DNA of 64,000 nucleotides. It comes from Halalkalicoccus tibetensis. GTDB lineage: Archaea > Halobacteriota > Halobacteria > Halobacteriales > Halalkalicoccaceae. The position numbers and the translations under genes are program-made. Below are positions 5,245 to 43,767 of this stretch, piece after piece (the stretch's first letter is position 1; every line of letters begins with the position of its first letter). Location: contig NZ_JBBMXV010000002.1 in NCBI RefSeq assembly GCF_037996645.1, forward strand, positions 186,001 to 250,000, in the 5' to 3' direction. Below the pieces are notes generated by a model. That model made no database searches, had not been told where the DNA came from, and saw nothing but the letters and a program-made list of their open reading frames with translations.

Positions 5245-5271
5245 GGCGTCGGCGGGATTACGATGATCGGA

Positions 5272-41621: not shown

Positions 41622-42437
41622 GTGCTCGACTTCCTCGACACACCCGACCGATCGGCGAAGCCCCGCGAGGAGGGGATCACCCACGCGCTCGACGACGGCG
41701 TCGGGGTTGACGAGGTACGCGACCGCCTCGAGGTATGTGAGGAGTTCGTCGACATCGTGAAGCTGGGCTGGGGGACCGGCTACGTCGCCGACCGCCTCGA
41801 GGAGAAGATCGCCCTCTACCAGCGCCGCGACATCCCGGTCTACTTCGGCGGGACGTTGTTCGAGGTGACGATCCGCCAGGGCCGCTTCGACGCGATGGTC
41901 GAGGAGCTCTCGGAGCTCGGCGTCGAGCACGTCGAGGTCTCGACCGGCGTGATCGACCTCGAACACGAGGAGAAATGCGGCTACGTCGACCGGCTCTCCG
42001 AGGAGTTCACCGTGCTCTCGGAGGTCGGCCGGAAGGACGCCGACGAGGAGCTCACGCTCGAGGAGTGGGGCGGGCGCGCCGAGCGCGAGCGCGAGGCGGG
42101 CGCCTGGAAGGTCATCATGGAGGGCCGTGCCGGCGGCGACACCGGCGTCTACGGCGACGACGGCGACGTCAAGGCCGGCCTGATCGAGCACACCGCCGAG
42201 CGGCTCGGCGCCGACTCGATCGTCTTCGAGGCGCCCCAGACGGAACAGCAGGCCTGGTTCGTCGAGCGGTTCGGACCCGAGGTCAACCTCGGGAACGTCC
42301 GCCTGGACGACGTGATCCCCCTGGAGACGCTCAGGCGGGGGCTGCGCGGCGACACCGTCGAGACGTTCCACCCCGAGACCGGGGTCGACAGAACCGAGGC
42401 GACGACCGAACTCGCGGGGATCGAAACCGATGATTGA
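41622..42437 (+). CDS. comA: phosphosulfolactate synthase
   Basis: A 271-residue (2R)-phospho-3-sulfolactate synthase, which joins sulfite to phosphoenolpyruvate. This is the first step of coenzyme M synthesis in methanogens. The TIM-barrel protein shows KLGWGTG (near 47-53), VYFGGTLFEVT (near 73-83), VEVSTGVIDL (near 104-113), WKVIMEGRAGGDTGVYG (near 161-177) and VIFEAPQ-type (IVFEAP near 200). The N-terminal REEGITHALDDG is also family-typical. Starts at GTG 41622. Its end overlaps the VOC gene by eight bases. Its product in a haloarchaeon may be coenzyme M, sulfolactate or a relative. Confidence 0.9.
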   Translation: MLDFLDTPDRSAKPREEGITHALDDGVGVDEVRDRLEVCEEFVDIVKLGWGTGYVADRLEEKIALYQRRDIPVYFGGTLFEVTIRQGRFDAMVEELSELGVEHVEVSTGVIDLEHEEKCGYVDRLSEEFTVLSEVGRKDADEELTLEEWGGRAEREREAGAWKVIMEGRAGGDTGVYGDDGDVKAGLIEHTAERLGADSIVFEAPQTEQQAWFVERFGPEVNLGNVRLDDVIPLETLRRGLRGDTVETFHPETGVDRTEATTELAGIETDD

Positions 42438-42834
42438 GAACGACCACATCTTCCACCTGGCGATCCCGTCGCACGACCTCGAACGAGCCGAATCGTTCTA
42501 CATCGACGGGCTGAACGCTGAAACGGGCCGCAAGTACGACGACCGGCTGACGATGGACTTCTACGGCGACCAGATCGTCTGCCACAAGACGAGCGAGGAG
42601 GAGATCGACGACGACGTGACGATGTACCCGCGCCACTTCGGCGTGACCGTCACCGACGAGTCGGACTTCGAGGCGATCCTGGACAACGCCCGGACCCACG
42701 ACCTGCCGTTCTTCCAGGAGCCGATGATCCGCTTCGAGGGCGAGACCGACGAACACCGGACGTTCTTCCTCCAGGACCCCTCGAACAACCTGCTCGAGTT
42801 CAAGTGGTACAACGACCCGAGCCAGATGTACTGA
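42430..42834 (+). CDS. VOC (glyoxalase/dioxygenase fold) protein within the comA-comB operon
   Basis: A 134-residue vicinal-oxygen-chelate protein with paired beta-alpha-beta modules. The first module contains HIFHLAIPSHDLERAESFY (near 6-24), and the second contains HFGVTVTDESDFEAIL (near 58-73). The metal-ligand positions of this fold are plausibly H9 (FHLAIPS), H58 (RHFGVTV) and E123 in LEFKWYNDP. Such proteins act as isomerases, lyases or dioxygenases. Overlaps comA by eight bases and ends at TGATG of comB, so it is translated with both. Substrate unknown; context suggests a sulfonate intermediate. Confidence 0.85.
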   Translation: MIENDHIFHLAIPSHDLERAESFYIDGLNAETGRKYDDRLTMDFYGDQIVCHKTSEEEIDDDVTMYPRHFGVTVTDESDFEAILDNARTHDLPFFQEPMIRFEGETDEHRTFFLQDPSNNLLEFKWYNDPSQMY

Positions 42835-43535
42835 TGGAGGTCGAACGCTGCCCGCTTCCCGACGTCGAGTCGACCGTCGGGCCAGAGGACGCCGTCGTCG
42901 TCGTCGACGCGCTGCGCGCGAGCGCGACCGTCGCGACGCTGCTCGCGTGTGGCGCGAGCGGGGTGCGGCCGGTCGCGGACGGCAACGCGGCCGACGAGCC
43001 GCTCACGGCCGGCGAGCACCACGGCGAGCGCGTCGAGGGGTTCGACTTCGGCAACTCGCCGCTCGCGATCCGCGAGCGAAGCGAGGAGGTCGCGGGCCGC
43101 GACGTCGCGGTCCAGACGACGAACGGGACCAAGTGCGTGAACCGGGTCGACGGCGCGGGCCACGTGTTCATGGGCTCGACGGTCAACGAGTCGGCGCTGG
43201 CGCGGGCGGCCGTCGACCGGCTCCCCGAGGACACGCGAGTGTGGGTCGTCCCCGCCCGCCGGCGCGGCGAGTACGCCCCCGAGGACGACTACGCCGCGGC
43301 CCGGATCGAGCGCCGGTTCGCCGAGGAGCTCGGCCGCGAACCGCCCGAACTCGGCTTCGAGGCGGACCCCGAGGAGCTGTTCCTCGGGTCAGACACCGGC
43401 GAGTTCCTGATCGGGAAGGGGAGCCGGGACGACGTGGAACACTGTGCGAAACCGGACGTCTGCGGGGCGGTGCCGATGCTGCGCGACGGACTGTTCGTGG
43501 ACGCGACGCGATCGACGGAGACGATACAGCCATGA
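42834..43535 (+). CDS. comB: 2-phosphosulfolactate phosphatase
   Basis: A 233-residue ComB, which removes phosphate from 2-phosphosulfolactate to give sulfolactate, the second step of coenzyme M synthesis. Family signatures are VVVVDALRASATVATLLACGA (near 22-42; read as VDALRASAT plus LLACGA), FDFGNSP (near 69-75), TTNGTK (near 95-100) and the Asp-rich loop PEDDYAAARIERRF. Its ATG lies within the TGATG of the VOC stop. Its own TGA is in ATGA with a 26-codon frame. Confidence 0.9.
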   Translation: MEVERCPLPDVESTVGPEDAVVVVDALRASATVATLLACGASGVRPVADGNAADEPLTAGEHHGERVEGFDFGNSPLAIRERSEEVAGRDVAVQTTNGTKCVNRVDGAGHVFMGSTVNESALARAAVDRLPEDTRVWVVPARRRGEYAPEDDYAAARIERRFAEELGREPPELGFEADPEELFLGSDTGEFLIGKGSRDDVEHCAKPDVCGAVPMLRDGLFVDATRSTETIQP

Positions 43536-43612
43536 CCGACCGAAACGACACCACGACGGCGACGCATCGTTACCCGACCGACCGCACGGACCGCCCGGGG
43601 GCCGAACGATGA
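43532..43612 (+). CDS. 26-codon bridging ORF after comB
   Basis: A frame of 26 codons, rich in Thr, Asp and Arg, starts at ATG 43532 overlapping the comB stop (ATGA) and ends at TGA 43610-43612, overlapping the ATG of the next small gene (ATGA). Double overlap at both ends is what a translationally coupled tiny gene, or a ribosome-relay spacer, would show. Peptide too short for homology reasoning; could be chance. Confidence 0.3.
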   Translation: MTDRNDTTTATHRYPTDRTDRPGAER

Positions 43613-43767
43613 CCGAGGTCACCGGGGCGGAGGCCGACGACGCCGACCCGGAGCCCGAGGGCAAGAGCGAGGACGAGGACGGCGACTACCTCGACGACAT
43701 CGACGACGGGTCGGGCTGCACCGAGATCTGGGAGCAGCTCTCGGAGCGCCGCGAGAACGACGACTAG
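43609..43767 (+). CDS. small acidic haloarchaeal protein (DUF7556-like)
   Basis: A 52-residue very acidic protein with a conserved-looking C-terminal half YLDDIDDGSGCTEIWEQLSERR (parts: YLDDIDDGSGC, TEIWEQLSE), resembling a small haloarchaeal family (DUF7556, recalled). One cysteine is followed by an amphipathic helix. It is separated by 44 bases from riboflavin synthase and overlapped upstream by the 26-codon frame. Function unknown. Confidence 0.6.
   Translation: MTEVTGAEADDADPEPEGKSEDEDGDYLDDIDDGSGCTEIWEQLSERRENDD

Follow-up and report, generated by a model that had tools for sequence, protein, structure and literature searches.

A VOC-fold gene paired with comA in bacteria and three haloarchaea points to a sulfonate-biosynthesis branch outside the known coenzyme M route

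In the window, by which we mean the whole 64,000-nucleotide stretch of DNA that was analysed, a gene for a VOC-fold protein lies between homologues of comA and comB. We consider it probable that the three genes form a compact sulfonate-biosynthesis operon in which the VOC protein is a dedicated metalloenzyme, diverting a ComA/ComB intermediate away from coenzyme M, with the sulfonated acid probably being handled as a CoA thioester. The gene for this putative metalloenzyme is almost always found with comA, often overlapping it, in at least seven bacterial phyla and three haloarchaea. This pairing hints at a so far undescribed way of making sulfonates, one that would not reach coenzyme M by the known route. 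Sulfonates make up a large pool of organic sulfur for which few biosynthetic routes are known, and the label “phosphosulfolactate synthase, coenzyme M biosynthesis” misleads when it is given to genes of haloarchaea and of many bacteria. The pairing with comA also offers a direct, testable assignment for 3RRI, a structure solved in 2011.

The operon and its predicted enzymes

The coordinates and Pfam families of the three genes confirmed the comA–VOC–comB unit that the first-pass annotation had described. The features are as follows:

41622..42437, + strand: comA, (2R)-phospho-3-sulfolactate synthase, 271 aa, GTG start, Pfam PF02679
42430..42834, + strand: gene for the VOC-fold protein, 134 aa, ATG start, Pfam PF00903
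42834..43535, + strand: comB, 2-phosphosulfolactate phosphatase, 233 aa, ATG start within TGATG, Pfam PF04029
43609..43767, + strand: small ORF, 52 aa, tail motif LDDIDDGSGCTEIWEQLSERR

The two overlaps reported earlier are borne out by the ORF coordinates: comA and the VOC gene share 8 bases (42430-42437), and the VOC gene meets comB at TGATG, where one base is common to both. Such overlaps point to coupling of the genes and not to coupled amounts, and the “linked stoichiometry” drawn from them was not retained. The tail that forms a separate 52-aa ORF in the window (43609-43767), with the pattern LDDIxDGSGCTEIWExLSExR, is the C-terminus of ComA in G255 and the C-terminus of ComB in G358, these being the two other haloarchaeal genomes with the VOC gene. 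A further copy lies elsewhere in the window's genome; beyond the window, the tail sites are L005:2239-2337, L170:6570-6644 and L172:1501-1596. The tail ORF is therefore probably not specific to the operon, and its standing as an operon part is doubtful.

ComA of the window matched Pfam PF02679 with E=2e-83 and 280 bits (cut-off 25.2) and scored 237 bits, below the cut-off of 280, against the NCBIfam methanogen equivalog TIGR03849. It aligned over its whole length to 1QWG (M. jannaschii ComA) and 1U83 (B. subtilis YitD) with E~5e-51. Loss of the active-site residues would have spoken against the first-pass assignment, and the alignment showed that the canonical residues common to both structures are kept (KxGWGT, GGTLFE, EVGxK, EGR and LETLRxGLRxDT). 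ComB matched PF04029 with E=4e-41 and 141 bits (cut-off 26.4), fell below the strict NCBIfam equivalog cut-off, and matched 2YYV with E=1e-21; its motifs DALRA, GEHHGE..GFDFGNSP and TTNGT follow the family pattern D.LRA / GE..G..GFD.GNSP / TTNGT. Judged by family membership and these retained residues, ComA would combine sulfite with phosphoenolpyruvate into (R)-phosphosulfolactate, from which ComB would remove the phosphate to leave (R)-sulfolactate.

The VOC protein matched PF00903 (Glyoxalase/VOC) with E=8e-11 and 3RRI with E=3e-40 at 50% identity, whereas none of the curated NCBIfam families matched it above cut-off and the curated Fos families did not match it at all. Across 82 members of the family, H9, H52, H69, H109, E123, R34, R39, R101 and K125 are invariant in the alignment. 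H9, H69 and E123 are the candidate metal site; motif and strand order would place them at positions usual for VOC metal ligands. The AF2 model of the protein (pLDDT 95) comprises two beta-alpha-beta-beta-beta modules in the order expected for the VOC superfamily. The structural comparison proposed in the first-pass annotation was run with this model: Foldseek returned 3RRI as the closest structure (TM 0.93) and, far below it, mostly uncharacterised VOC proteins together with the fosfomycin-resistance metalloenzymes FosA, FosB and FosX, which are the closest folds with known function (TM 0.61-0.73; 14-23% identity). Among other members of the family, no more than 13 of 82 matched Fos models, and those matches were weak (E about 1e-3); matches to models of methylmalonyl-CoA epimerase and glyoxalase were weak too. 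In the pathway, and on the strength of its gene association, this putative metalloenzyme would act on the ComA/ComB intermediate or a close derivative, away from coenzyme M.

Association of the VOC gene with comA

We scanned 84,980 genomes with VOC queries alone (those of the window, G255 and 3RRI), obtained 153 confirmed loci and analysed the best 80, which are the closest by VOC similarity and several of which are MAG contigs. In 60 of these 80 loci the VOC gene is immediately preceded by a comA homologue on the same strand; in L038, comA is about 1.75 kb upstream of the VOC gene with comB in between. The pair occurs in Bacillota, Actinomycetota, Acidobacteriota, Pseudomonadota, Planctomycetota, Campylobacterota and Bacteroidota, and comA overlaps the VOC gene by 8, 4 or 1 bases in 35 of 63 pairs (haloarchaea included; starts assigned automatically). 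This adjacency recurs although comA played no part in finding the loci, which makes the VOC gene more than a chance neighbour. Conservation of the pair in relatives, on which the first-pass proposal depended, thus holds for 60 of 80 bacterial loci and all three haloarchaeal carriers, and the suggestion that the VOC protein is a pathway member is plausible. The pairing is mainly bacterial. We found no paper in the open-access literature that pairs ComA with a VOC or glyoxalase protein, or sulfolactate with a VOC fold.

A local comA is lacking in 19 of the 80 loci, 15 of which have comA elsewhere in the genome; these include all twelve genomes of a Sulfobacillus-like set without comA at the VOC locus. 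In four VOC-bearing assemblies, some of them drafts or MAGs, comA was not found (G304, G305, G306 and G307). We also observed that the VOC gene adjoins a D-2-hydroxyacid dehydrogenase gene in ten Sulfobacillus-like loci (L046, L049, L056, L059, L063, L066, L074, L095, L100 and L101), four of which also have an MFS transporter; their comA copies lie elsewhere in the genome.

Other genes recur beside the bacterial VOC gene. Counted on the same strand within 6 kb of the 80 VOC genes, by simple ORF calling and similarity to few representatives, 41 loci have an AMP-dependent ligase of the acyl-CoA-synthetase type and 35 have a membrane acyltransferase-3; a histidine phosphatase (12), a D-2-hydroxyacid dehydrogenase (10) and comB (9) are less frequent. 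Two Actinomycetes MAGs encode ligase and ComA as a single fused ORF (L085:3165-5786 and L105:5432-8008), whose end the VOC gene overlaps by 8 bases, and a Nitrosomonadales MAG (L096) has the order comA–VOC–comB, as in the window. These neighbours suggest that the dephosphorylation step may be served by two unrelated phosphatases, and that in many bacteria the product would be activated, either to an acyl adenylate or to a CoA thioester, before being moved to an acceptor.

Among 391 sampled haloarchaeal genomes, only three carry the VOC gene, namely the window's genome, G255 and G358, which rules out the operon as a common haloarchaeal trait. The order comA–VOC–comB is kept in all three carriers. 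The 8-base overlap of the window recurs in G358 (comA ends at 5264, the VOC ATG is at 5257), and by ORF coordinates the TGATG between the VOC gene and comB is identical in all three. In the trees, the three haloarchaeal VOC-linked ComA proteins form one clade (support 97/86), as do the three VOC proteins (100/100). None of five genus-mates of the window's organism has the VOC gene. This patchy spread suggests transfer between lineages, and the operon fits an import into haloarchaea from bacteria; the trees name no bacterial donor.

The families of the two flanking enzymes are more widespread. ComB-family genes occur in 75 of the 391 haloarchaeal genomes; ComB alone is therefore not diagnostic, and we rejected it as a marker of the system. 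ComA-family genes were found in 43 of 292 sampled haloarchaeal genomes, and the VOC-linked type in only two of these 43, the window's genome and G255. A divergent ComA-like family (L147-L160, L162 and L164-L166) has about 30% identity to ComA of the window. Its 26 placed haloarchaeal sequences form a single clade on a very long branch, an aligned example (L152, 6911-7744) has lost most canonical ComA residues, and a MmgE/PrpD gene stands alongside in 17 of 19 fetched haloarchaeal loci. On these grounds we rejected the other haloarchaeal ComA matches as parts of the same system. The divergent family is probably annotated as phosphosulfolactate synthase and probably makes something else.

Genomic context of the product

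Later genes of coenzyme M synthesis were sought in the window's genome, which is 97% complete, following a suggestion of the first-pass annotation that we carried out for ComC and ComE. There was no match to ComC (Ldh_2, PF02615) in the whole genome, while the M. jannaschii positive control was detected, and the best genome-wide match to ComE (TIGR03846) reached 42 bits against a cut-off of 221.5. Because ComC is absent and no ComE rises above cut-off, coenzyme M is unlikely to be made by the methanogen route, and we rejected coenzyme M synthesis as the function of the operon. That the operon might serve coenzyme M by some other downstream route is suggested by ComA and ComB standing at the head of the coenzyme M pathway, as its first and second enzymes; given the same two negative searches in a nearly complete genome, we regard this as highly improbable. 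No enzyme that uses methyl-CoM is known in haloarchaea.

A different set of genes accompanies the VOC operon in haloarchaea. SauS, the acylating sulfoacetaldehyde dehydrogenase, exceeds the cut-off of 600 bits in 7 of 391 haloarchaeal genomes, among them all three VOC carriers (666 bits in the window's genome, 653 in G358 and 647 in G255). The hypergeometric chance of this coincidence is about 3.5e-6 (35 of 9.9 million triples), a figure that ignores kinship: G255 and G358 belong to the same family, so the carriers are not three independent events. A set of SauS, class III CoA-transferase and TctCBA is present in all three carriers. In G358 and G255 the TctCBA transporter and the SauS-matching aldehyde dehydrogenase lie beside the operon, and in G358 a gap of about 170 bp separates comB from the start of TctC, which has the same orientation. 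The window's genome carries the operon on contig C2 and the SauS cluster on contig C4:

L183:8888-14771 (contig C4), - strand: cluster of CoA-transferase III, SauS, TctA/B and TctC in the window's genome

The set of CoA-transferase, SauS and TctA also occurs in G197 and G241, both without the VOC gene. Depending on the bacterium, CoA-acylating sulfoacetaldehyde dehydrogenases serve the conversion of sulfoacetate to sulfoacetaldehyde or the reverse (PMC12890257), and Roseovarius and Chromohalobacter are known to have TTT transporters for sulfolactate (PMC5812351). Simple desulfonation by SauS and Xsc was rejected, as Xsc exceeds its cut-off of 676 bits only in G358 among the three carriers; the best match in the window's genome is 276 bits. 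As a separate observation, SauS adjoins an Xsc-like gene scoring 671-672 of 676 bits in G343 and G029 (L187, L188, L204 and L205), which are without the VOC operon, and this pair looks like a catabolic sulfoacetate cluster.

From the bacterial ligase and acyltransferase beside the comA–VOC pair, and from SauS, the class III CoA-transferase and TctCBA in haloarchaea, we infer that the later fate of the product is probably a sulfonated carboxylic acid carried as a CoA thioester. The genome without ComC and without ComE above cut-off suggests that this product is not coenzyme M made by the methanogen route.

Possible roles of the VOC protein and comparison with known systems

Two finer versions of the preferred explanation differ in the chemistry assigned to the VOC step. 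The protein may be a redox-neutral C3 enzyme comparable to Fos enzymes, glyoxalases and epimerases, with phosphosulfolactate, sulfolactate or sulfolactyl-CoA as its substrate; it would then be an epimerase, an isomerase, a hydrolase or an enzyme that adds a thiol. We hold this version only tentatively. It is consistent with FosA, FosB and FosX being the nearest characterised folds and binding a C3 phosphonate at the metal, and with the weak matches of the family to Fos, methylmalonyl-CoA epimerase and glyoxalase models. The invariant R34, R39, R101 and K125 would suit a polyanionic substrate, and the order comA–VOC–comB would suit a step before dephosphorylation. However, the likeness is only at the level of fold, at 15-23% identity, and epimerisation needs a CoA thioester, whereas no ligase lies beside the haloarchaeal operon. 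Rather unlikely, in our estimate, is an O2-dependent metal enzyme that replaces ComC and ComDE and oxidatively converts sulfolactate (or sulfopyruvate) to a C2 sulfonate; this product, either sulfoacetaldehyde or sulfoacetate, would then pass to SauS and the CoA-transferase. The absence of ComC and of ComE above cut-off, the presence of SauS in all three haloarchaeal carriers and the possible 2-His-1-Glu triad H9/H69/E123 agree with such an enzyme; HPPD and extradiol dioxygenases use this triad in the VOC fold. So does the physiology of the named carriers: Alicyclobacillus, Sulfobacillus, Pseudonocardia, Nocardia, Methyloprofundus, Sulfurimonas and the haloarchaea are aerobic or microaerophilic, whereas ComA is also present in anaerobic methanogens. 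Against it, the VOC protein has no kinship in sequence or structure to alpha-keto-acid oxygenases beyond the common fold, and its closest characterised folds are the Fos enzymes. A broader proposal would make ComA, ComB and a VOC metal oxygenase a second, aerobic exit from sulfolactate, a short path that starts with PEP and sulfite, does without ComC/ComDE and yields a C2 sulfonate or its CoA thioester. In bacteria of several phyla the ligase and acyltransferase would attach the activated sulfonate to an extracellular molecule, while haloarchaea would have acquired the core and joined it to SauS, CoA-transferase and TctCBA. This proposal we consider speculative and decidedly unlikely.

The true rivals to the preferred explanation are the coenzyme M reading weighed above and an operon that ends in sulfolactate, as an osmolyte, a spore or storage compound or a sulfite sink, with the VOC protein as an accessory, a ComA partner or a regulator. 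In B. subtilis, spores accumulate sulfolactate to about 5% of their dry weight by the yitCD pathway, with the VOC gene unmentioned (PMC517825). Overlapping genes often mark physical partners, and SauS and Xsc would release sulfite in G358. Yet an accessory would have no need of catalytic residues, and all the putative ones are invariant across the 82 members; in ten loci the VOC gene lies away from comA and adjoins the 2-hydroxyacid dehydrogenase gene. We judge that an accessory role is improbable.

Compared with known systems, the preferred pathway shares its ComA and ComB homologues, with their conserved residues, with the methanogen coenzyme M route (ComA, ComB, ComC and ComDE). It differs from that route by the inserted VOC gene that overlaps comA and by having neither ComC nor a ComE above cut-off. 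Coenzyme M synthesis in bacteria (Xanthobacter xcbB1C1D1E1; Mycolicibacterium) also begins with a ComA homologue (PMC8727900); it continues with enzymes of the aspartase/fumarase superfamily, of which none was seen here, and the VOC gene is unmentioned. The yitCD system of B. subtilis has a ComA/ComB pair as in the window, ends in sulfolactate and has no VOC gene described; in the tree, YitD is placed beside the VOC-linked ComA of Evansella. The host of the window is not known to sporulate, unlike B. subtilis. With the catabolism of sulfoacetate and sulfolactate (SauS, SlcHFG), the three haloarchaeal carriers share a TTT transporter and a SauS that scores above the equivalog cut-off. They depart from it in that Xsc is missing in the window's genome and G255, a CoA-transferase stands in place of the sulfoacetate ligase, and ComA is an anabolic enzyme.

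Among VOC proteins, FosA, FosB and FosX have the same fold, show a metal triad pattern like the putative one here and act on a small anionic C3 substrate, but they differ by their 14-23% identity and by the lack of a curated Fos match above cut-off. 3RRI, a VOC protein of A. acidocaldarius from structural genomics, belongs to the same family as the VOC protein of the window and is that family's one solved structure, still uncharacterised. The presence of comA in Alicyclobacillus has been noted in the literature (PMC10562698), and other Alicyclobacillus loci in our survey have comA directly upstream of the VOC gene. The link of the 3RRI family to comA is new information.
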